Origin: a virus
Strand: one strand, 5' to 3'
Virus record (IMG/VR): IMGVR_UViG_3300045440_000075
Coordinates: 1-46,497 of that record
Length of the DNA stretch: 46,497 bases
Position numbers and translations under genes: made by a program
Shown: positions 3,907 to 34,434 of the stretch, piece after piece
Layout of the letters: each line of letters opens with the position of its first letter
Position numbering within the stretch: position 1 is the first letter of the stretch
The notes under the pieces: generated by a model
What the model was told of the DNA's origin: nothing
Databases searched by the model: none
Seen by the model: the letters and a program-made list of their open reading frames with translations, nothing else

Positions 3907-5519
3907 ACGTCCACGATCTACTGGCAACGGTTGAATGGTCGCATCCCATTCAGCTAAATACTAAACGAGGGGTCAGACTCCTCCGAAAAGCTCCGATAGA
4001 GGATGCTTTCTGGAAAGTCTATAAGATTGACCGTGAGTTATTCAAGGAGCAACTGGCAGCGGCTGGCATCTCAATGGGTAAATTCCGAGATGAGTGGGCG
4101 CTGTCTTGGTGGTCAGATGAAGCCCTCAAGTTCAAGTCCGTTATCGGTTCCGATAATGTCGAGGAGAAGCTAGAGGAGGTTAATCTTATACCTCTACTCC
4201 ATCCCGATGGTTTGTTTGAATACCAGCAAACTTCCGTTCAGATGGGGGTTGCTTCTATGGCTAAATACAACCGGGTGCTGCTAGGTCACTCTACTGGTGT
4301 AGGGAAGACCTTCTGTGCTTTAGGTATTGCTAGGGAGTTGGGTAAACGGGTCGCGGTGATCTGTCCCAAACCAATCACAACCGACTGGCATAGGGCAGCG
4401 AAGCTCATGGGTGTAGAAATCTTTGAGGTTTGTGGGTGGGAATGGGCGAAAACTGGTAAGTCTCAGCTAGGTAGATGGACAGATGACAAGAAGCATGAGT
4501 TTCGGTTCATGCTCCCGCCTGATGTTATTCTGATTTTTGACGAGGTTCATCGTGGCAAAGGTGAAGCTACCCAAAACGCTTATCTGGTTCGGGATTCAGT
4601 AAACCAGAATATCCCAGCTATCGCCCTCTCTGCTACTATAGCTGATGACCCGATGAAACTTTGGGCAATCGGTCAGTTCCTTGGACTACACCAAGGCGGT
4701 AAAGACTACTACCGCTTCTTAAACCAAAACGGATGCAAGAAAACCCGCTTCGGTATGCAGTTCCAAGGTGGTAATGGTATCCTAAAAAGACTACATAGCC
4801 GCATCTATCCAGAAAAAGGCAATAGACTTAGACATTCAGACCTTGGTGATGCGTTCCCAGAGACATTGATTAAAGCCAAAGCGTTCGATATGGATAACGC
4901 TAAGAAGATTGCTAATGAGTATGAAGACCTATGTAGCAGGATAGAAGAACTTCGGATGCAAGAAAACTTCTCTGCTAACGTCCTCGCTGAACAGACTAGG
5001 GCTAGACAACGAATCGAAATGCACAAAGCCCCGGCTGTCTGTGCTATGGTTCGTGATCTAATCGAAGAAGGAAACTCAGTCTTTATAGCAGTCAACTACA
5101 CTGAGACACGCAAGTGGATTCTGGATGAGTTGAAGGTATCTTGTTCTATCCACGGGGGACAGAACGAAATGGAGCGTAGAGGTAACATCGACTCCTTCCA
5201 GCGCGGTGATTCCAAGGTGATCGTAGGTATCATTCAGGCTTGCAGAGAAGGGTTAAACCTCCATGACCTGACTGGTGATGCTCCTAGAGTTGCCCTAATC
5301 ATGCCTAGCCCATCTGTATTCGATCTTAAGCAAGTCTTGGGTAGAATCCACCGAGCAGGAGGCAAAACTAAATCCATTCAATATATCGTCTATGCAGCGG
5401 GAGTTTTTGTAGAAGAGAACATCTGCGAAAAGCTAGATGGTAAACTCAAACGAATGGATTTGCTAGCAGATGGTGAAATTGATGGAACTATTTCTCTAGT
5501 TCCGAAAGAACAAGTCTAG
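3903..5519 (+). CDS. SF2 (SNF2-type) DNA helicase
   Basis: This 538-residue superfamily 2 ATPase, taking the ATG at 3903 in an ATGA overlap, would unwind or translocate on DNA during replication or recombination. Visible motifs are FEYQQ (Q-like motif) near residue 110, Walker A GHSTGVGKT near 130, VICPKP (motif Ia), LIFDEVHRGKG (DEVH box) near 212, ALSATIADDP (motif III), IVGIIQACREGLNL (motif V) and QVLGRIHRAGG (motif VI) near 480. Length and order fit phage SNF2-like helicases. The region encoding KSVIGSDNVEE contains a perfect copy of the dispersed palindrome (4141-4156). A strong terminator follows. It is the only full-length helicase in the window. Confidence 0.85.
   Translation: MNVHDLLATVEWSHPIQLNTKRGVRLLRKAPIEDAFWKVYKIDRELFKEQLAAAGISMGKFRDEWALSWWSDEALKFKSVIGSDNVEEKLEEVNLIPLLHPDGLFEYQQTSVQMGVASMAKYNRVLLGHSTGVGKTFCALGIARELGKRVAVICPKPITTDWHRAAKLMGVEIFEVCGWEWAKTGKSQLGRWTDDKKHEFRFMLPPDVILIFDEVHRGKGEATQNAYLVRDSVNQNIPAIALSATIADDPMKLWAIGQFLGLHQGGKDYYRFLNQNGCKKTRFGMQFQGGNGILKRLHSRIYPEKGNRLRHSDLGDAFPETLIKAKAFDMDNAKKIANEYEDLCSRIEELRMQENFSANVLAEQTRARQRIEMHKAPAVCAMVRDLIEEGNSVFIAVNYTETRKWILDELKVSCSIHGGQNEMERRGNIDSFQRGDSKVIVGIIQACREGLNLHDLTGDAPRVALIMPSPSVFDLKQVLGRIHRAGGKTKSIQYIVYAAGVFVEENICEKLDGKLKRMDLLADGEIDGTISLVPKEQV
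4141..4156. promoter_or_regulatory. dispersed palindrome, copy 2 (inside helicase gene)
   Basis: TTATCGGTTCCGATAA is identical to copy 1 and lies inside the helicase reading frame, where it encodes V-I-G-S-D-N. Its persistence inside coding DNA argues for selection at the DNA level. Confidence 0.85.
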
Positions 5520-5530
5520 TCTAAAAAGCA

Positions 5531-5568
5531 AAAGGCCCACCAAGGAGAAATCCAAGGTGGGCTTTTTT
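5531..5568. terminator. bidirectional rho-independent terminator
   Basis: GCCCACC (5536-5542 region) pairs with GGTGGGC ending at 5562, with an inner GGA-GAAA-TCC stem-loop. T6 follows on the + strand and an A-rich stretch lies on the other side. It separates the convergent helicase gene and the leftward early operon. Confidence 0.85.
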
Positions 5569-5579
5569 GTTTCTATCTA

Positions 5580-5861
5580 TTAGGTGATGATACGAGGAAC
5601 TTCTTCTTCTTTTTCCTCCGTATCAAAACGCTTACGGAACTGGCTCTCTTTATAATAGAGAAAAGCAAGCTCCAAGTATTTGATACACTCAAACCCCTCA
5701 CCCTTGCGGGATTCAGATTTGATTACCATCATCGCTGCGGTATGCAGCAAGCTGGCAAAGGCATGGACTCGTTCGTTTAGTTTCTCATCCTCGCATTTGA
5801 TGAAGCTGAATGCCTCAAGAATCGTTTTGGATGTTTCGTTTTGTTGGTTTTTTTCTGACAT
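5580..5861 (-). CDS. small helical protein, last gene of early operon
   Basis: This 93-residue, mainly helical protein has two long helices (about residues 28-48, NERVHAFASLLHTAAMM, and 57-76, ECIKYLELAFLYYKES) joined by a SESRKGEG loop, then an acidic tail (TEEKEEEVPR). A short two-helix hairpin with an LExAF-type second helix recalls the Acb2/Tad1 nucleotide-sponge proteins of phages. The resemblance is weak and I do not assign it. It is the last gene of the leftward early operon, 3 bp after its upstream neighbour, and is followed by a terminator. Confidence 0.6.
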   Translation of the reverse strand: MSEKNQQNETSKTILEAFSFIKCEDEKLNERVHAFASLLHTAAMMVIKSESRKGEGFECIKYLELAFLYYKESQFRKRFDTEEKEEEVPRIIT

Positions 5862-18700: not shown

Positions 18701-20536
18701 TTATATTAAACTCTTAGCTGCTCTTGTGTAATATACGCCTCCAGAATCTGTCATTTGTGGAACATATTGCTGATTGTTATATCCAGTAATTGAACCTGCA
18801 TTTTTAGCAGTAGCGTATTGGTTGTATGCTCCATACCCAGCATTTCCAACTGACGTAAGACCTTGACCAATGCTTGACAACAATTGCGCATTAGATTGGC
18901 TTGCTGCAAGATTATTAGAAATTGTGCTTGTTCTTGCTTGGTAGGTTCCTTGCGCTGCTCCAGTTGATGCCCCGTATTGTGCCATCGCTAGATTTGCTAA
19001 TATATTCTGCTGTTCTAATTGGGCTGCAATTTCGGCCTTTCGTTTGTCAATATCTTGACCTCTGCCAGCTAATCCGATGCTCATTATTTGAGGGGCATTC
19101 TGAAGGAATCCTTGCGAAAGACTTTGCCATGCCATGTTGGTTGCTTGCATTCCCCTAGCTGCTTCTCCAATATTTGCAGACGCTGCCCCTGCTGCGCCAA
19201 TTCCTTGTGCTATATTTTGTAATCCTGCACCTATATTTTGATACCCTTGTGATTCCGCTAAATATCCTTGAGCTATATTTTGTAACCCTGCTCCTCCAGC
19301 TTGAAGACCTTGCGCTGCGGCTTGATACCCTTGACCACCAGCTAAATAACCTTGCCCTCCAGCTTGATAACCTTGAGCAATATTTTGGAGTCCAGTTCCA
19401 ATATTTTGATATGATTGCGCTCCTCCTAAAATCCCTCTTCCCGCGCTTTCTATTCCTTGACCAACATTTACTTGACCAGCCGCAAGTCGAGATGTTTGGT
19501 CACTGATATTGCTTATCGCGCTTAATCCATATCTTTGCCTTTCTTCTGCTGCTTGGGCTAGATTTTCAGAAAGCATTCCTTGAGGAACTTGAAACCCTGA
19601 CGTTCTTCCTGCTGCTGCTGGATTATATCCTGCACCGCCAAATTCAGCTATTGCTCTTGTGATTTGTCGTTTTGTTACATCAGGTAAATCACCAAGTAAA
19701 TATTTTCCTGCAACATCTCTTGCTTGTTGTAATTGTGGAAGTTGTTGCTTTAACAGTTCACCAGCAGTGGCGTACTGTTTCTGAGATAAATTAAAAAGTT
19801 GATTTGCTTGTGCAATCTGCTCTTCAGACCTAAGGAATTTTTGTTCAGATGCTTTAAGTTGCTCGTCCGATTTCTTTATCTGTTCATCCGATTTTTTGAT
19901 TTGTTCTTCGGATTTTACTATTCTTTCTTCAGCTTTAAATATTCTTTCTTCAGCTTTTTTAAGCTGTTCATCGGACATTTTTAGCTTTTCTTCCGATGAG
20001 ATAATAGTTTTTCCAGCTTGGTCAAGTAGCGGGTATGCTTTTTGGACTTCTTTATATTGGTCATCAAGTTTGGTTTCCCATTTCTTAATGTCTTCCATTG
20101 CTTTTGCCCTAGCATCCCTTGCCCCCGGAACTATAGTTTCTAATTGACTTAGCGTATTTGTAGTCAATAGATTTGCTGCTTTAATGCCTTCTAAAACCGC
20201 ACTTGCTCTGGCTGGTGACTTAATTGTAGGAAGTCCAGTTTTTTTATTATAAATTATTTTTCCATTCTTGTCTGTTTTATAAACATCTGGTGTTCCTAAA
20301 AGAGTAAAGTTTGGTATTTTAATTGATGTATCAATACTAGAAACAGACGCAGAGATAGCTGCGACATTTGCATTGTAAAGAGCGGTTGCTGCCTCTAAAT
20401 CTTTCTGGTACGTTTTACTTACTTTTCCACCTGCCGCTGCTGCTTTCTTGCTTGCATCAGCGGACATTGCCGATGATGTTATTGATGCTGCAGTGCCTAA
20501 TGCTGCTATTCCAACTGCTGCTATTCCAAGTCCCAT
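18701..20536 (-). CDS. putative ejection/internal virion protein with coiled coil and Gly-Gln repeats
   Basis: This 611-residue protein has a hydrophobic Ala-rich N-terminus (MGLGIAAVGIAALGTAASIT) as seen in phage ejection proteins. A long coiled coil of seven-residue repeats (KKSDEQI/KKAEERI-like) follows at about residues 185-260, then a Gly/Gln/Ala block of seven-residue repeats (GLQNIAQGYQAGGQGY) at about 365-450. It probably forms part of the internal core or the ejected channel. It has one of the few clear Shine-Dalgarno sequences here: AAGGAGG, 8 bases before the ATG, within the end of the upstream gene. High expression would fit a multicopy virion protein. Confidence 0.5.
   Translation of the reverse strand: MGLGIAAVGIAALGTAASITSSAMSADASKKAAAAGGKVSKTYQKDLEAATALYNANVAAISASVSSIDTSIKIPNFTLLGTPDVYKTDKNGKIIYNKKTGLPTIKSPARASAVLEGIKAANLLTTNTLSQLETIVPGARDARAKAMEDIKKWETKLDDQYKEVQKAYPLLDQAGKTIISSEEKLKMSDEQLKKAEERIFKAEERIVKSEEQIKKSDEQIKKSDEQLKASEQKFLRSEEQIAQANQLFNLSQKQYATAGELLKQQLPQLQQARDVAGKYLLGDLPDVTKRQITRAIAEFGGAGYNPAAAGRTSGFQVPQGMLSENLAQAAEERQRYGLSAISNISDQTSRLAAGQVNVGQGIESAGRGILGGAQSYQNIGTGLQNIAQGYQAGGQGYLAGGQGYQAAAQGLQAGGAGLQNIAQGYLAESQGYQNIGAGLQNIAQGIGAAGAASANIGEAARGMQATNMAWQSLSQGFLQNAPQIMSIGLAGRGQDIDKRKAEIAAQLEQQNILANLAMAQYGASTGAAQGTYQARTSTISNNLAASQSNAQLLSSIGQGLTSVGNAGYGAYNQYATAKNAGSITGYNNQQYVPQMTDSGGVYYTRAAKSLI
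19190..19440 (-). repeat. DNA repeats encoding seven-residue Gly/Gln units
   Basis: This region is made of degenerate 21-bp units that encode GLQNIAQ / GYQAGGQ / GYLAGGQ-like heptads in the putative ejection protein. The repeat is at both DNA and protein level, so copy number may vary. Confidence 0.7.
19800..19990 (-). repeat. DNA repeats encoding coiled-coil heptads
   Basis: Degenerate 21-bp units rich in GAAGA/AAATC steps encode repeating SDEQIKK / AEERIFK heptads in the putative ejection protein. Confidence 0.65.
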
Positions 20537-20537
20537 A

Positions 20538-21077
20538 TTATTTAGCCTCCTTATTTAAGTATATGTCCAACCATGCTGATAGCCTTGCATTTATGAAAAA
20601 ATATACAGAAGCATCGCTAGGTATATTATGTATAATTGCAGTCGCTGCTGTATAACAAGCTGGATTCGGGTATAACATTTTCCCTGTACCATGAATGTAC
20701 TTAGTTATTTTTTCAATAATAAAATGTATTTCTGGAAAGTTTTTCTCAATATGTTTTGCAACGCCATCCCACGTTGGGTCTGGTTTTCCTTTTGTAAAAC
20801 TCGTTCCCCATCCCGGTATTTTAATTCCAGCTTCCATATATGCTTTACATAATTCAATTGGATCAGAAGATGACAATACCTCTACTGCATACTTCGTTGG
20901 CCCATGTGGGCCACCAAGTGTAGATAGTGCGCCAATTACAGAACCAAGAAAACTTCCGCTTCCTTGGCCTGATATTTTAACGGCAATAGATGAAGGATTA
21001 TTTCTAAAGGATGACTTATAGTGAGCTTTATTTAGAAGTCCAACTAGCTTTTCTTTGTTTTTCTTTTCGTTAATCAT
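20538..21077 (-). CDS. citrate synthase-fold protein lacking catalytic residues
   Basis: This 179-residue protein resembles the catalytic half of citrate synthase. LSTLGGPHGPTKYAVEVL (51-68) matches the GPxHGGANEAVLxML helix with its His (H58). KIPGWGTSFTKGKPDP (86-101) matches the GFGHRVYKxxDPR segment, but the catalytic His is T92. KMLYPNPACYTAA (133-145) matches KxLYPNVDFYSG, but the catalytic Asp is A140. FINARLSAWLDI (161-172) matches the FAxARxxGWxAH helix. Condensing activity is therefore unlikely; it may bind CoA or act structurally. It overlaps the sulfotransferase gene (ATGA) and sits inside the virion operon. Similarity is judged by eye. Confidence 0.6.
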   Translation of the reverse strand: MINEKKNKEKLVGLLNKAHYKSSFRNNPSSIAVKISGQGSGSFLGSVIGALSTLGGPHGPTKYAVEVLSSSDPIELCKAYMEAGIKIPGWGTSFTKGKPDPTWDGVAKHIEKNFPEIHFIIEKITKYIHGTGKMLYPNPACYTAATAIIHNIPSDASVYFFINARLSAWLDIYLNKEAK

Positions 21078-21613
21078 AATCCGTAGTTATTTAATACTTT
21101 GTTACGATCAAGTGAGGATGTAAATCCAATAAGGTTATTAAATTTAATATTGTAATCTTTTACTTTTTTATAAATTTCTTGATTAAACTTTAACCCTCCA
21201 GACAAATAAGAATACATTTCTTCAATCCTTAAATCAATGTCTTCGTATCTTACAGTTAAAGTTCCTTCGTCCATTGATGCCTTCTCAAGTAGCTCGCTTT
21301 GCTTTTTTAGCATTTCATCAACCCCAGTTATTCCTATTTTAGACAATGATTTTATCACGTCATTCACGTTTCTTTTTATAACAAGAACTCTAGGGTTAAG
21401 TTTATCCTTTAATTCTTTTAGTCGGAATACTTGTGCTGTATCACAGCTACCAATCCCTTCTGTTTTTATTTTGCTAATAGCATCTTCAAATGAATCTGAT
21501 TTGGCTATAAGTTCATGCTCGCATGGAAGTCCAGCTAGTGTTAGATATAGTGATAACCAAGCTGTTCTACTTCTAGGAAACGATAAAACAATAAAATTTC
21601 TTTTATTTTTCAT
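21074..21613 (-). CDS. short P-loop sulfotransferase-like protein
   Basis: This 179-residue protein has the sulfotransferase signature. NFIVLSFPRSRTAWLSLYL (6-24) is the 5'-phosphosulfate-binding loop (usual PRSGTTWL), and RVLVIKRNVNDVIKSLS (75-91) is the 3'-phosphate-binding motif with Arg 81 and Ser 89. Such enzymes move sulfate from PAPS to a sugar, protein or small molecule. The protein is shorter than most (about 250-300 residues). It sits between a tail protein and the citrate-synthase-like gene with ATGA overlaps on both sides, so it is made with virion proteins and might modify one of them or a host glycan. The P-loop codons hold a 14/16 match to the dispersed palindrome (21571-21586). 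Confidence 0.65.
   Translation of the reverse strand: MKNKRNFIVLSFPRSRTAWLSLYLTLAGLPCEHELIAKSDSFEDAISKIKTEGIGSCDTAQVFRLKELKDKLNPRVLVIKRNVNDVIKSLSKIGITGVDEMLKKQSELLEKASMDEGTLTVRYEDIDLRIEEMYSYLSGGLKFNQEIYKKVKDYNIKFNNLIGFTSSLDRNKVLNNYGL
21571..21586. promoter_or_regulatory. degenerate dispersed palindrome (14/16)
   Basis: TTCTAGGAAACGATAA differs from the consensus at two bases of one arm. It lies within the codons for L-S-F-P-R of the sulfotransferase P-loop, where a perfect site would change the Arg. Confidence 0.45.
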
Positions 21614-22572
21614 CGGTATAGAAAGTAGTCATTCGGTGATGGTGATAGCAAGTCAGAACCAATTAGGTTTTCTGCTCTACTATAATTGGCAAATCGAATT
21701 GGCCCTGCCGTTGGAATCTCTGTGTTTTCCATTTCCTTTTCTTGCTCTTGGACTGCCAACGAAAGGTTCTGCAAGTACTCTTGCGCCTTCCTGTTTTCGC
21801 GGGAGTTCAATGCAAGGATGGCATAGATCATCGCATCCGGGGTAAACTCTAAAAGTTCTTTAGGATCGGTTAGATCAAAGTATTTTTTAGATGCGTAAAG
21901 CGTAATGCACTCGCACGTTCTTGGGGCCGTAAACCTACGGAATGTAGGGTGAGCATCACTTGGTTGGTAAATCGCTATTAGCGTCCTAGCTTCAAGGTAA
22001 GTGTCGTATGCATATACGCGAATCCTTCCTTTAGTTACTGGCTTTGTTACTGCCCTAATTCCTTTTACAAAGAGTCCAGAATTAGTTAGAGTTGGTGGAA
22101 TCTCTGCCGTTACTTTGACTTTATGATAAGTATCATATTCGTCTTGCGCTTCAAACATTAACTCTACCCCTGCGTCTTCTGGCTCTTCCACCATCACTCC
22201 AATTTGATATGGGCGTGAAGTATAATCTCTGAATAATACATGAAGACCACCCACTTCTGTGATACCTCTGTGGCAGGATTGCTCTGGTCGAAGTGCAAGC
22301 GCATTGGTTGCGTTAAACCACTCGTCAGATAGTGATGCCGCTTCATCCCCAATCCATGCAAGTTTGATTTGCTCATAACGAGACGGAAGCGTGAAGCATT
22401 TATCTACACAACAAATCTGAACGTACTCTTCTTGAGTCGTCCATGCTCGTTTATTCCATAGTAGTCTTCGTGCTTGGTTTACTGCCTTGACTCCACGCTC
22501 GTATGAACAAGTGCCTGAGTCACCGACAAAACCCTTCACTAGCTCTACCATCTCTTCGAGGGTATCAGCCAT
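21610..22572 (-). CDS. putative tail/connector structural protein
   Basis: This 320-residue protein starts with a helical domain (MADTLEEMVELVKGFVGDSG..., AVNQARRLLWNKRAW). A mixed beta region and a helical C-terminal part (DAMIYAILALNSRENRKAQEYLQNL) follow. The layout resembles the tail tubular A / head-tail adaptor proteins of podoviruses, which connect the portal to the nozzle. Its neighbour at 23290 looks like a nozzle protein. No diagnostic motif is visible. A copy of the dispersed palindrome ends 5 bases before its ATG. Confidence 0.45.
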   Translation of the reverse strand: MADTLEEMVELVKGFVGDSGTCSYERGVKAVNQARRLLWNKRAWTTQEEYVQICCVDKCFTLPSRYEQIKLAWIGDEAASLSDEWFNATNALALRPEQSCHRGITEVGGLHVLFRDYTSRPYQIGVMVEEPEDAGVELMFEAQDEYDTYHKVKVTAEIPPTLTNSGLFVKGIRAVTKPVTKGRIRVYAYDTYLEARTLIAIYQPSDAHPTFRRFTAPRTCECITLYASKKYFDLTDPKELLEFTPDAMIYAILALNSRENRKAQEYLQNLSLAVQEQEKEMENTEIPTAGPIRFANYSRAENLIGSDLLSPSPNDYFLYR

Positions 22573-27133: not shown

Positions 27134-28978
27134 TTATGGTTTAGATATGACTGTCAGTGTGCTATCCAAACAGAATCTATAACCAAATCCGCTATTCAAA
27201 GCTGGTGTTGTAACTTGAAAACCAAAACTGTCAGTAGTAGCAATGCAACCAATAACTTTTCCTTGTTGTGATCCAAGGCTTGTACTTGCTTGTGAAACAA
27301 ATGACCTAGTTCCAGCAGAACAATTTCTAATTGTTGCTTGGTTTGTAACCTTGCCAAAAGACCCTATAGCTGTTGCAAATGAATTATTCCCAGCAACGCA
27401 ATTTTCATATCTTCCAGTTATGATAGATGTAGTTAAAATAGTCGGGTTAATGCAAGCGAACGATTGATCGTTTGATGTGCAATTATAAAATGAAGAGTTA
27501 AAATAAGGTTGAGTGCTTCCTGTATAATATCCAAATGATTGCGTTCCCAATGCAGTGCAATCAATAAATGTTGTTAGAGAACCTGCTCCACCAGCAGTAA
27601 GTGCTGGTTGAACTGTAAATTTGCCAGCACCATTATTGTCTGCTTTCAATCCACTAATTTGTCTTATCATAGTTGTTACTGGAACATCTATAACCGTATT
27701 AGTATTTATATTCGATATTACTACAGATGGAGTTCTATACGATGCCCCTAGTCCAATAACATCAGTGTACTCTCCATTTAATGATAGCGTTGCTGTAATT
27801 GTATATGCACCCGGCATTATTAATAGTGCAGACCTATTGCTGGGGCTTGTTCCAAGTGCTTTTGCTGCTGCATATTTCGCAATAAGATCGTCGCCTTGTT
27901 TTGCAGTAACTATATTAGCGGCAGTTATACCCGGTGATAAAGCAGCAATGGCATCAGCAACCAGTTTAGGTGACATCATCCTATTTGTTGTCAGTACTCC
28001 AGCTTGCATTTCTGGAATGCTTGCTTGTGTCATATCTTGGATATTTGGAAGCCCAACACTAGCCTTTGTGATCGATACGACACCTGTTAGTCCATTTACA
28101 CTTAGTACTGGGGATGATGGGTACGCTAACTGAGTCCAACTTCCAATGCTTGTTGTTGGAGTTCCAGTAATAACCCATGTCGTAGATGTGTCTGTTCTAA
28201 TACAGAAATCTCCTTGCTGTCCAGTAAGGGCCAACATTGCCGCTTGGTTTGCTACGGAACCAAGATATGCTGTTACTGATATAGCTGGAATCTGACTAGG
28301 CAGTAGTTTACCTCCAGCATCAAGTGTTGCAACTCCGTTTGGAGTGTCTAGTGATGCAAGTGGAACGTATGTTCCAGAACCACCAACCGGGCCAGTAGCT
28401 CCGTCTGGGCCTGTCGCTCCAGTTGCTCCGTCTGGCCCTGTAACTCCAGTTGCTCCGTCTGGCCCTGTAACTCCAGTTGGGCCAGTCGCCCCATCAAGTC
28501 CAATGACTCCAGTGGCTCCTGTCGCTCCTATTCCTGTAGCACCAGTGCCACCAATTGGGCCAGTTGCTCCTGTAGCTCCTATCGGGCCACCAGATGGGCC
28601 AGTTGCTCCTATAAGATTGTTGATTGAAACAATCACTATATCTGATCCAACTGGATCAGGTGATGCCATTGTTAGAACGTACGGTGTTCCTGACGCGATT
28701 GTATAACTATTAGGGTCTTTAACAATACCATCTACCGTTACTATGAATGATGTTGAGAATGTTGTTGCAGCACCACTAATATTGAAATTAGTTGTAGTTC
28801 CATCTCCAGTATATGCCCATCGGATTCCACCGCCATTGTCTCTTTGGAAACAAGCAGAGTTAGCGCACTCAGATGAGATTCTTGCATAATATGCTGCGCG
28901 GTTTGCTATTTCATTCATTGCCGCCTCACTTGGGCCGCATGGATTGCATTTAGAACTTCTGGAATTTCCGCAACTCAT
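27134..28978 (-). CDS. collagen-like tail spike with beta-helix end
   Basis: This 614-residue protein starts with a Cys cluster ([16 protein letters not shown]), then a beta domain. A collagen-like stalk of about 85 residues follows (GATGPxG repeats, residues ~123-205), then a linker ([20 protein letters not shown], typical of fibres). The C-terminal 270 residues have repeating turns ([44 protein letters not shown]) that suggest a right-handed beta-helix. It is probably a trimeric host-surface binding spike. A palindrome copy lies 7 bases before its ATG. Confidence 0.6.
28379..28610 (-). repeat. collagen-type repeat DNA
   Basis: Nine-base units such as GGAGCAACT / GGGCCAGTA, read on the minus strand as Gly-Ala-Thr and Gly-Pro-X triplets, encode the collagen-like stalk of the spike gene. 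Confidence 0.8.
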
Positions 28979-29886: not shown

Positions 29887-30059
29887 TTTTTAATTATTTG
29901 TTTTGTCATGTAGATGCACGTTAGGACACCTGCAATAATACTGATTATTCCACCAGTCACTCTAATTGACGCTTCTATTTCTGGTAACATACTTACTATA
30001 AATCCTGTGGTCGATATGATCGTACCTAATACTCCGTGGCTGGTGGCGTTGTCGTTCAT
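29883..30059 (-). CDS. two-span membrane protein, putative holin/antiholin
   Basis: This 58-residue protein, MNDNATSHGVLGTIISTTGF..., has two transmembrane stretches (about 10-25 and 36-51) joined by LPEIEASIRV and a basic end (MTKQIIKK). Size and two-helix topology fit a class II holin or a helper of the holin at 29552. It has ATGA overlaps with the tail-spike gene upstream and the lipoprotein gene downstream. Confidence 0.5.
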   Translation of the reverse strand: MNDNATSHGVLGTIISTTGFIVSMLPEIEASIRVTGGIISIIAGVLTCIYMTKQIIKK

Positions 30060-32290
30060 ACGGTTGGTCTTGAGTTTTTATATGGATGCCCGGCTGGAAG
30101 TAAAGAAACTAAATTCCACTTCCATGCAAGGTATCCTTCCATTTTTTGTCTATCTGTTGTTGTTAAAGTTGATCCATAAGAAATAATTTCGCATACAACT
30201 CCATCCCACGGAGAAGCGATTTCACGCAATGTTCCAATTCCATATCCACCAACCCCAACCGCACTTGTTGCGTTTGCTGAAATAAATCCAAGTGATGTAT
30301 TTAGTTGCGGAAGAACTGTTCGACTATTTAAATCGGCGGATACTTGCGTTGCATTGAGGAAGAATGGCCCATTTAGATATGAGTTTGCTGTCCATGCTTG
30401 TGTTACTCCAGTTGAAAATAAACAATTTCCGTTTGCGCTGCCACCACTAATAGCAGCAGAAAATAATGTGCAAAACCCAGTCGATGCTGAAAAGAATGCC
30501 GTTCCCTGTTCGTATTTACATAGAATGAATACATTCCTAAAATCTCGAACTGTTAGTCTATCAGTAGAAAATAGACGTTTGCTTCCAGTAAATCGGATTG
30601 CATTCAGCCCATCAACATTTGTAAACGCTGGTTCTTCTCCAGTATTAGGAATAGCATGGTTTGCCAAGCTAGATTTATCTCTCCATTGAGTTACAGATCC
30701 GCTGCTAATTGTCAGCGCATTTGAGTCTGCAGCATCAAGCCACAAGTTTATCGTTGCACTTGCATTGGTAGGACTCCAGTATGTAACTGGCAGAGGTATA
30801 GCATTGCCTAGTGAAGATGGAATAAATGCGACTTGTTTAGAGCAAACAACAATGGTATTTGTGTATGTGATTTGAGCGTAAGCAAAAACATATCCATTAA
30901 TGTTATTACATGGCGTCTGTGCGCTCCATGTTCCGTTCCCGTTACTCGTTGTAGTCGCAGCAATCCATGTTCTGTTTTGCCAATCTGACGTCTCAAGAGC
31001 ATAGTAAATTTGAATTGCTGAAACATTTGCTGCGTCAGATGGCGCAACAGTTGCCATCGGATAGCCAGCATTTACTCCAGATGGAACGAGACTTGGAATA
31101 GTATCTGGATTGCTAGGCCAAGTAGCAATTGTTCCTTTTAGTTTATGGTCGAACCAAAGCTGAATGTTTTGTGTAAGTCCAGTAATGTCGTGATTAGCAT
31201 TTGCTCGAAAAGCATAGCTTCCAGTTACTGGAGATATTTCAAAGTTTCGGAATCCACGATCAAAGTTTCCATGGAAATCGTTTGTTGATGTCAACCAAAG
31301 AACAGGAGCCTTTGCGCTTTTTGCGTATGCCTGCGATTCAAGCGTGGAAATGTAGTAGTTGTTTCCTTCAACAAATGTCGGCTCAACATAAGGAATTGTG
31401 TAAGGATAAACACCAAATGTTTTCCAGTAGTGAATCCATCCGTTACCAAATTGAGCGATGACAGCTTTAATGTCTGGCTCAATGCACATACTATATGCGA
31501 TCTGACCACCCCAAGAATTACCCCAAAATCCAATCTTGGTAGTATCAATGTCAGCAGTCAGAGACTTTACATAAGCAAGAACTCTGCGCGGAATCGCATA
31601 CCAGTAGTACATATCCTGATTGCGGACATCAGCAATGCTGGCAACCGAAACTTGGCTTGCGTAGTTTGCGTTGGGATTTACATTTTGGTTTAGACGGTTT
31701 AATGCTGCTGGATAAAGCGTCATTAGCGTCGATGGATAGCTGTATGTTCCATTGAATGTTCCGCGCCAGTCGTATTGGATAACGGCATAACCAAGATCAG
31801 CATAGTTAGTATAATCAGCAACGCTTGCGCCCCATCCATTGGTAAAAATAAAACATGGAAGATTTCCTTGACCTTGAAGCGTAGTTTTTACTTGATACTT
31901 AACATAAACCCTAATTAGATGCCCATTGATTGGCATATCAATAAACGAATCTTCTGTTAGAATTTGATTAATTGTGACTGATGAAATTACAGTTTTATTA
32001 AACGCTCCAGCAGATGGATCGTAGTTGTTGTATCGTGATCCAACAGTCCAAATGGAATTTACATCTGGCGTAACTTCAGTATTCGTATCCGCACGATACC
32101 AAGTTCCACTTTTAGGATAAACTATCGATTGGCTATTAGTGCCTTGCTTGCCAAATCCAGTTGCATCTGGACTATAAGCAGTCGTTCCATCATTAAGAGT
32201 TGTTGGAAGATCGTTTACAGAGGCATTTATTACCGCTGGGTTTTGGAAGAATCCTAGTTTTCCAGATATAGGGTCAAGTCGGAATGGCAT
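30056..32290 (-). CDS. tail spike with alpha/beta-hydrolase (esterase) and LamG-like lectin domains
   Basis: This 744-residue protein starts at ATG 32290 with a short virion-anchor type N-terminus (MPFRLDPISGKLGFFQ). A hydrolase domain (about 90-420) follows. YAVIQYDWRGTF is the oxyanion region, GFWGNSWGGQIAYS holds the nucleophile elbow G-N-S-W-G (Ser about 257), LWLTSTNDFHG the acid (about 337) and NANHDITG the His (about 365). The C-terminal third ends in a LamG/concanavalin-like domain (INLWLDAADSN, VTQWRDKS, MEGYLAWKWN, LPAGHPYKN). It probably de-esterifies or deacetylates a surface polysaccharide during adsorption. Confidence 0.65.
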   Translation of the reverse strand: MPFRLDPISGKLGFFQNPAVINASVNDLPTTLNDGTTAYSPDATGFGKQGTNSQSIVYPKSGTWYRADTNTEVTPDVNSIWTVGSRYNNYDPSAGAFNKTVISSVTINQILTEDSFIDMPINGHLIRVYVKYQVKTTLQGQGNLPCFIFTNGWGASVADYTNYADLGYAVIQYDWRGTFNGTYSYPSTLMTLYPAALNRLNQNVNPNANYASQVSVASIADVRNQDMYYWYAIPRRVLAYVKSLTADIDTTKIGFWGNSWGGQIAYSMCIEPDIKAVIAQFGNGWIHYWKTFGVYPYTIPYVEPTFVEGNNYYISTLESQAYAKSAKAPVLWLTSTNDFHGNFDRGFRNFEISPVTGSYAFRANANHDITGLTQNIQLWFDHKLKGTIATWPSNPDTIPSLVPSGVNAGYPMATVAPSDAANVSAIQIYYALETSDWQNRTWIAATTTSNGNGTWSAQTPCNNINGYVFAYAQITYTNTIVVCSKQVAFIPSSLGNAIPLPVTYWSPTNASATINLWLDAADSNALTISSGSVTQWRDKSSLANHAIPNTGEEPAFTNVDGLNAIRFTGSKRLFSTDRLTVRDFRNVFILCKYEQGTAFFSASTGFCTLFSAAISGGSANGNCLFSTGVTQAWTANSYLNGPFFLNATQVSADLNSRTVLPQLNTSLGFISANATSAVGVGGYGIGTLREIASPWDGVVCEIISYGSTLTTTDRQKMEGYLAWKWNLVSLLPAGHPYKNSRPTV

Positions 32291-32292
32291 CG

Positions 32293-34434
32293 CTAAAAGT
32301 AAGTTGTTACAATTACGATACCTTGTGCGCCATTTCCACCAGCACCAGAGAATAGCGCAGCATTCACCGTCCCTTGGCAACCGCCGCCTCCGCCGCCACC
32401 ACCATACAGCCCTCCATTGCCTCCTGCTCCTGCGTTTTTAGTAAACGCACCAACCCCGCCAGAACCGCCGCCACCGCAATGCAGATAGCTATTCATGCTT
32501 GTTCCATTGCTACCATTTGCGCCTTCGACACCAGATGAAGTGCTTATTCCGCCAATTAGATTATTCCCAAGCACCCATTGACCGGAGCCACCATTGAAGA
32601 AAGAAGTTGAGTTAGCACCACCTCCGCCACCAGCACCAGCACCAGAAATTAAAGCCGATCCACCACCAGCACCAACGGCTGTGCTTCCACCAGCACCTCC
32701 ACCGCCAGATGTATTAACATTTCGACTGCTTGCTGTTCCGGCATTACCATTATTTCCGTTTCCACCACCACCACCAGCAGCATACACCCAAGGATTAAGA
32801 GCGTTTCCACTAATCGCTCCAAAATAAGTATGGAATCCATCTCCGCCCCAGATGTTTTGTGAGTTGACTTGGTTAGTGCCTGTTCCGCCAACTCCCTCAA
32901 TACCAACAATAATTGACTCAGTTGATGACAATAAAGATGCAGGTAGTTGAGTTCTAAATGTCAATCCTCCTCCAGCACCTCCTCCACCACCAGAAACTCC
33001 TGCATTAACTCGTCCGCTAGAACCAGCACCACCACCAGCGATGCAAAGAACATCAACAGACTTTGCGCCAGTTGGTTTTGTCCAAGTGTATGTATTTGCA
33101 GCAAAATGTATCGTTGTAGCAATGTTTCGATCAGAATAATTATATGTAGCATTACTAGAAACAGTAATTGTTGTTCCAGCAATGTTTGTAATTGTTGTTT
33201 GCGTTCCGCTTGTGTTCGATGGCAAGAATGGTGCTGAAATAGCCATTCCAACAACCATGTTTGCATTGTTAGCTACAGTAATTACATTGCTTCCAGAAGT
33301 AAATGCAGTTGCAGTCGTTGTGTATAGTGTTCCGCGAGTAAAAACTTGAACATCAGTTGGGGTTGCTGGCCCTGCTGGGCCAGTAGCACCAGTTGCACCT
33401 GTGGAGCCTGTAGAACCATTAACTCCTGCTACACCCGTTGCGCCCGTCGATCCCGTAGAACCTTGGATGCCTTGAATGCCTGTTGCTCCTGTAGCACCAG
33501 TTGCTCCAGTTGGGCCAAGTTGGTTATACATCACTTGCATTACTGTGATGATTACAGATGGAATTGCTGGTGCAGGAGCTATAGATGTATTGTGGTCAAT
33601 GGCAATATTAGTATTATCAGTTGACCACATTATCTGCAAGTAATCACCAGCAGCAAAGTTATCCATGAAATCCCATGCTGGGACTGCATATTTATTATTT
33701 GGAGATACTGTTATACGGGTTGCAGAATCTGGAATATCTACTCCATTTTTTTGGAACCAAATTTGCACTGTTTCACCCGGCCCTCCACCACCGTTGTTGT
33801 GAAGTTGTGCAGAGAATTGAATGTCGTATGTTCCAGCAACAGTAAATGTAATTTGTGATCCACTAACGACAGATATACCATTTTGACCAATGATATTATT
33901 CACTGTCATTGGATATGCCGTGCTTACCAACGCTGCTATTTGATCGACATTAGAGTAGTACGACCCATAGTATCCAGACGCACCTCCAGCACCAGTCAAT
34001 CCCGTTGCTCCAGTAGCCCCTACTCCCGTTGCTCCAGTAGCTCCATTTGAACCAGATATCCCAGTGGCCCCAGTAGCACCAGTTGCGCCATTAGTTCCTG
34101 CTACACCCGTAGCACCAGTCGATCCCGTTGAGCCAGCACTACCAGTTGTTCCTGTGGCTCCTGTGGCTCCTGTGGCACCATTACTGCCAGCCAATCCTGT
34201 GGCTCCAGTTGCGCCTGTCGATCCTGTCGATCCAAATAGGCCAGTTGCACCGACCAAACCAGTTGCGCCTGTCGCTCCGCTTGCCCCAATCCCTGTTGCA
34301 CCCGTACTGCCAGATGCGCCCGTAGCTCCAGTTGGGCCACCAGATGGGCCAGTTGCTCCAGTTGAACCAATAGCGGATGCTCCTGATCCTAGAAAATCTA
34401 GTTTACCAGTAAAAGGATTGAATGTAAGGGCCAT
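32293..34434 (-). CDS. collagen-like fibre with Gly-rich adhesin end
   Basis: This 713-residue protein starts with [20 protein letters not shown], the same anchor pattern as the neighbouring spike. A first collagen-like stalk (about 25-155) is followed by a C1q-like beta domain (about 160-300). A second collagen stretch (about 305-355) and a 200-residue Gly-rich domain with runs of Gly follow, ending [12 protein letters not shown]. Such stalk-head-stalk-tip layouts are typical of receptor-binding fibres. It begins 3 bp after the upstream stop. Confidence 0.65.
33358..33520 (-). repeat. collagen-type repeat DNA, second stalk
   Basis: Degenerate 9-base units encode Gly-Ala-Thr/Gly-X-Y triplets ([10 protein letters not shown]-like) of the second stalk in the fibre gene at 32293. 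Confidence 0.7.
33985..34375 (-). repeat. collagen-type repeat DNA, first stalk
   Basis: Degenerate 9-base units encode GATGATG/GSTGATG triplets in the N-terminal stalk of the fibre gene. It contains long stretches of near-identical units likely to vary by slippage. Confidence 0.8.

Follow-up and report, generated by a model that had tools for sequence, protein, structure and literature searches.

The window, a stretch of 46,497 nucleotides (positions 1 to 46,497 of the IMG/VR virus record IMGVR_UViG_3300045440_000075), contains a citrate-synthase-like (CS-like) gene on the minus strand, next to tail genes. The open reading frame starts with ATG and occupies exactly 20538-21077; on the plus strand, the same span is rich in stop codons. 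Its 179-residue product carries the motifs GGPHGPTKYAVEVL, PGWGTSFTKGKPDP, LYPNPACY and NARLSAW, has Thr at residue 92 and Ala at residue 140, and was characterized by profile, fold, residue columns and dN/dS as a CS-like protein without the equivalents of His320, Arg329 and Asp375. The adjacent gene (21074..21613, minus strand) encodes a short P-loop sulfotransferase-like protein, also of 179 residues, assigned from a match to phrog_10855 (E 1.6e-11), its motifs and its adjacency. The gene at 21610..22572 (minus strand) probably encodes, judging by its position, the head-tail adaptor, and it forms the upstream border of the slot. On the other side lies a gene for an internal virion/DNA-ejection protein at the T7 gp14 position (18701..20536, minus strand), so placed by its position and its similar N-terminal type; the window protein has no informative match of its own, and its equivalent in a related locus (L034) matches P22_gp7, T7_gp14 and phrog_598 (DNA ejection). 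The CS-like, sulfotransferase-like and adaptor genes are joined by 4-base ATGA overlaps and therefore form a compact unit. Promoter and terminator scans gave chance-level results only.

Other tail genes of the window and of its near twin, L002, showed features of their own. Among the tail-fiber genes, 30056-32380 (minus strand) encodes a 774-residue protein whose GNSWGG motif is typical of alpha/beta-hydrolases and whose C-terminal part is LamG-like; it may be an esterase or peptidase carried on the tail. Two tail-fiber-like proteins of the same operon (27134-28978 and 32293-34434, minus strand) contain collagen-like repeats of the G-A-T-G type. L002 carries a GIY-YIG-type homing-endonuclease-like open reading frame inside its tail operon (5120-5743, plus strand), the first residues of which duplicate the beginning of the tail gene that follows; the window has none.

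Relatives of the CS-like gene were collected from IMG/VR. A degenerate DNA pattern for GWGxxxxKxxPDP, left free at residues 92 and 140, returned 12 loci in addition to the near twin; alignment A4 (12 sequences) then led to 53 loci, from which 38 distinct sequences, including that of the window, were aligned as A5. No match to three divergent members was found by tblastn in 50,697 records of phage isolates, and no PHROG matched the family, which has therefore been left unannotated so far. Two motif scans of 84,980 species genomes (GTDB) revealed no cellular relative and a single chance match (L158); these scans rest on family motifs and could miss distant cellular relatives, so that their negatives are weaker than those of a profile search. 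Within the searched sets, the family is confined to uncultured phages, and it had not been named before. Between the window and L002, its nearest relative, the dN/dS of the CS-like gene was 0.086 (adaptor, 0.051; sulfotransferase-like gene, 0.167), and between L024 and L025 it was 0.063. Because these values are as low as 0.06-0.09, the CS-like product is a working protein under purifying selection. In one member, L044, the gene is broken into two open reading frames (4553-5125) by a frameshift or a sequencing error.

The CS-like gene is a phage-specific derivative of the C-terminal half of citrate synthase, comprising the small domain, the flanking helices and the Arg401 helix. Searched alone, the window protein matched Pfam Citrate_synt at E 2e-4 (20.9 bits, under the curated cut-off of 27 bits) and, in the PDB, the citrate synthase 2p2w (E 0.0025). 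The A5 family profile matched 35 PDB sequences at E <= 0.001 (best, 6.8e-15), all of them citrate/2-methylcitrate synthases or citryl-CoA lyase, and 11 of the 12 members of A4 matched PF00285 at E <= 1 (best, 1.6e-12). With only the two closest sequences, AlphaFold2 gave a pLDDT of 39, and the 12-sequence A4 alignment was used instead; the resulting model reached a pLDDT of 88.7 and a pTM of 0.86. The 50 PDB matches listed by Foldseek for this model all belonged to the citrate synthase, citryl-CoA lyase and ATP-citrate lyase group, headed by citryl-CoA lyase 6hxp (E 1.2e-5, probability 1.00, TM 0.75 over the query). No related fold was present among the viral structures of the BFVD library. 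Positions 183-341 of the 357 in the Pfam model are covered by the window protein, i.e., the C-terminal half only, and the matches of nearly all members begin at position 160-183. No second fragment corresponding to the N-terminal half was found elsewhere in the window phage or in the 11 records examined. The citrate-synthase fold proposed in the first-pass annotation, which had been made from the window sequence alone, was thus confirmed by profile and structure searches. Its description of the protein as mirroring the catalytic half of the enzyme was correct in that all of the quoted motifs are present, but the likeness covers the C-terminal half only and the equivalent of Arg329 has been lost too.

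Residue equivalents are given in the numbering of pig citrate synthase (H58, His274; T92, His320; K96, Arg324; T102, Arg329; A140, Asp375; R165, Arg401); the Arg324 position is Lys in bacterial enzymes. In the HMM alignments, the first catalytic His ('GPLHGG') was paired with H58, the catalytic His in the loop 'GFGH' with T92, the Asp in 'PNxD' with A140 and the conserved substrate Arg with R165. Accordingly placed, the loop PGWGTSFTKGKPDP (residues 88-101; 20775..20816, minus strand) keeps a CoA-type loop and K96 and has T92 for the catalytic His, LYPNPACY (residues 135-142; 20652..20675, minus strand) has A140 for the catalytic Asp, and NARLSAW (residues 163-169; 20571..20591, minus strand) keeps the Arg401 equivalent, with R165 and W169 present in 38 of 38 sequences. 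Thirteen columns are invariant in all 38 (S29, G55, H58, P60, G89, G91, F94, K96, D100, P137, N138, R165 and W169), and H19, R25 and N27 are nearly so; H58, G89, G91, K96, N138 and R165 fall at positions that belong to the active site or the CoA loop in citrate synthase. Position 92 is Ser in 20 sequences, Asn in 17 and Thr in 1, but never His; position 140 is Ala in 24, Ser in 12 and Gly in 2, but never Asp. The Arg329 position, Thr102 in the window protein, holds mixed residues across the family. The replacement of the second catalytic His by Thr 92 and of the catalytic Asp by Ala 140, already noted in the first-pass annotation, therefore extends to every relative aligned.

The patterns used in the 53-locus search touched positions 92 and 140, and the bias this might introduce was checked with the members found by the other pattern alone. 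His was absent from 14 of 14 members found by the pattern free at 92, and Asp from 9 of 9 found by the pattern free at 140; the members from the first scan, the pattern of which was free at both, all lacked both residues. When the loop was searched for with His in place, the pattern yielded a single chance match (L075). Collectively, the family almost certainly combines a citrate-synthase fold, as modeled, with the loss of its catalytic residues. Since the equivalents of His320 and Asp375 are replaced family-wide, citrate synthase or lyase chemistry of a known type is unlikely.

A maximum-likelihood tree divided the family into two fully supported clades, in agreement with genome context. In clade 1 (22 distinct sequences, including that of the window), the CS-like gene is flanked by the adaptor/nozzle genes and a gp14/gp7-like ejection-protein gene, the latter being followed by a further virion-type protein and then a very large ejection protein. 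This slot occurs both in the T7-like order of the window and in P22-like tails, as in L034, where Phage_stabilise (E 3e-43) and P22_gp7 (E 4e-6) were matched. Clade 2 (16 sequences) is found mostly in replication modules, near genes for DUF932, T7-like RNA polymerase, metallophosphoesterase, SSB-like, primase-helicase, PolA and ThyX proteins, all of which except DUF932 and metallophosphoesterase were named by eye. The placement of the gene in a virion operon by the first-pass annotation thus holds, as a tail/ejection-protein operon, for the window and clade 1, but not for most of clade 2. In L049 (7713-10357) and L050 (2615-5259) of clade 2, a third context was seen, neither the tail slot nor a replication module: the CS-like member precedes the terminase large subunit gene (PF03237) by two small genes.

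The sulfotransferase-like protein of the window has PRSRTAW as its 5'-phosphosulfate loop and R81...S89 as its 3'-phosphate motif, corresponding to the P[KR]SxTxW 5'-PSB loop and the R-x7-S 3'-PB, which are the motifs of PAPS-binding sulfotransferases. Among 17 relatives, R14, T17 and W19 are invariant and R81 is nearly so. The window protein itself has no match to Pfam Sulfotransfer_1/3/4; relatives of the adjacent type match these models below the cut-off, and a distant second type passes the cut-offs of Sulfotransfer_1/3 in L046 and L057. In clade 1, a sulfotransferase-like gene adjoins the CS-like gene in 22 of 22 cases (upstream in 14, downstream in 8), and in L068 and L071 this neighbor is of the second, distant type. 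This constant neighbor had been overlooked in the first-pass annotation. The gene order changed three times on the best tree, of which the well-supported branches require just one. Distances among the CS-like and the sulfotransferase-like proteins were correlated over 18 loci (Mantel r 0.94, p 5e-4), a value to which common phage descent contributes. No adjacent sulfotransferase-like gene occurs in clade 2; some members have the second type at a distance of 1.7-3.7 kb, and none was found in several others. Therefore, the pairing is not obligatory. In Pseudomonas and Stenotrophomonas phages, relatives of the sulfotransferase-like gene lack a CS-like neighbor. The function of phage sulfotransferases has been described as unclear (PMC10580990).

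The tail slot was also compared among phages with a similar adaptor. At 79 of the 80 IMG/VR loci whose adaptor is 84-88% identical to that of the window, the slot is filled by a single unrelated gene for a protein of ~162 residues, and only one of the 80, L002, carries the CS-like/sulfotransferase-like cassette there. Virions of this type can therefore be built without the cassette. The ~162-residue protein (L077-L156) matches phrog_12032 ('short tail fiber protein') at E 2e-23, looks cupin-like and has no Pfam match. The corresponding slot holds gene 13 in T7, and in the T7-like phage vB_PaeM-G11 an acetyltransferase gene lies between the genes for gp12 and gp14, its product being absent from the listed virion proteins (PMC10142737). 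Given these different occupants, the slot takes exchangeable genes, some of them enzymatic, and seems to be a place where small genes are swapped. The T7 gene 13 product (PF11090) and the vB_PaeM-G11 acetyltransferase thus share with clade 1 a gene position between the tail genes and gp14, but their sequence and fold are unrelated to those of the CS-like protein.

Compared with prokaryotic citrate/2-methylcitrate synthases (PF00285; PDB 6s6f, 3tqg and 2p2w), the CS-like protein has a homologous C-terminal half with a like order of helices and shares the first catalytic His, the CoA-loop Lys, the conserved Asn, Arg401 and the Trp positions. In contrast, it is half as long, has one extra residue in the K-x-x-P-D loop, is known from phage contigs only, and has the second His, the Asp and Arg329 replaced in every member. 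The best structural match, citryl-CoA lyase of Hydrogenobacter (6hxp), together with the CCL module of ATP-citrate lyase, is likewise a shortened protein of the citrate synthase fold. Citryl-CoA lyase, however, has ~260 residues, is catalytic and needs the full His/His/Asp site, whereas the phage protein has ~180 residues and no complete site. Putative citrate synthase genes have been reported in viruses of amoebae, namely tupanvirus and Pandoravirus massiliensis (ORF577), the latter product being without activity in vitro (PMC8857278); by their description, they are set apart from the phage C-terminal-half family. No report of a phage CS-like family was found in the literature searched.

Overall, we tentatively favor, as quite possible, a model in which a repurposed, virus-only citrate synthase domain keeps a CoA-type ligand site and, during infection, works inside the cell with the sulfotransferase-like protein encoded next to it. 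The CS-like protein would no longer perform citrate chemistry. The site is likely retained, in that the PG[WF]G loop, the invariant Lys, His274 and Arg401 are kept and would hold a ligand such as CoA, acyl-CoA (the binding of which is plausible) or a related nucleotide with a 3'-phosphoadenosine moiety, such as PAPS or PAP. Within the tail-slot clade, the two proteins would act as a pair around one such ligand and modify a small molecule or a protein inside the infected cell. CoA and PAPS have the 3'-phosphoadenosine 5'-phosphate moiety in common, and the CS-like protein keeps the loop and the basic residue that hold this moiety in citrate synthase, while its neighbor carries the motifs that bind it in sulfotransferases; a pair sharing one such ligand is the most economical reading. 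However, part of the CoA phosphate contacts in citrate synthase comes from the large domain, and it counts against a CoA-binding pair that most of this domain is missing and that the sulfotransferase-like protein is a short one, with scores that for the most part stay under the Pfam cut-offs. Shared phage ancestry alone could also yield the Mantel correlation. The homology, the fold, the family-wide loss of catalytic residues, the purifying selection and the constant adjacency in the tail-slot clade are shown by the data; the ligand, the physical partnership, the substrate and the site of action are what we infer. The fuller form of the model, a two-gene cassette of a de-catalyzed citrate synthase domain and a miniature sulfotransferase-like protein that share a 3'-phosphoadenosine ligand (CoA or PAPS) and act on the metabolism of the host or on a molecule of either host or phage, appears rather doubtful.

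The same pocket could instead belong to a new enzyme, rebuilt with Ser, Asn or Thr at 92, Ala, Ser or Gly at 140 and conserved R25, F94 and T143, which would carry out another CoA-dependent reaction, e.g., hydrolysis or acyl transfer, without needing its neighbor. Invariance is indeed concentrated at the pocket, the substitutions are limited to small or small polar residues rather than being random decay, and the replication-module clade manages without an adjacent sulfotransferase-like gene. However, the general base and the second His are gone, we know of no enzyme of the citrate synthase family that works without the Asp, and the constant adjacency in the tail-slot clade would be left unexplained; we consider such an enzyme unlikely, albeit worth keeping in mind. 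A host-takeover factor, which would pair with or block the host citrate synthase (or 2-methylcitrate synthase) through the kept interface helices and shut down or redirect the TCA cycle, appears improbable. Truncation and lost catalysis would suit a dominant-negative protein, bacterial 2-methylcitrate/citrate synthases are the closest sequence relatives, and the helix region before H58, which forms part of the citrate synthase dimer interface, is kept in sequence and model. Nevertheless, the N-terminal interface helices are missing, the identity to bacterial citrate synthases in structure alignments (~21-24%) is low for mixed assembly, and the most conserved residues are those of the pocket, which a pure interface poison would not require.

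The tail-slot clade always lies directly before the gp14/gp7-like ejection-protein genes, which is the position of T7 gene 13, and T7 gp13 is annotated as an internal virion protein/probable scaffold. A virion or assembly protein, e.g., an assembly factor for the ejection proteins, might thus be expected, yet the window protein matches Citrate_synt only and shows no similarity to PF11090, against which T7 gp13 itself scores 160.8 bits. Moreover, among 80 phages whose adaptor is near-identical, 79 have the unrelated 162-residue gene in the slot. With the sister clade mostly in replication modules, the function of the CS-like protein is not tied to the virion, and the structural role raised by the first-pass annotation is therefore unlikely; we give the assembly explanation only a slim chance. 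Truncation, lost catalytic residues and the one broken copy (L044) would also fit a citrate synthase that was acquired from a host, has lost its function and is decaying, but decay of a captured gene was rejected on the dN/dS values and is very improbable, considering also the 13 columns invariant across very divergent members and the differing genome contexts.

Few metabolic enzymes are as conserved as citrate synthase. A virus-only half of it, with its catalytic residues lost and under strong purifying selection, provides a test case for how a central enzyme may become a binding or regulatory protein, and the linkage of the CS-like and sulfotransferase-like genes provides a concrete pair to test. 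If the fuller, two-gene form of the model is true, this pair would put the citrate synthase fold to a use for which we know of no described precedent. These data suggest that phages have made something different out of a core metabolic enzyme.
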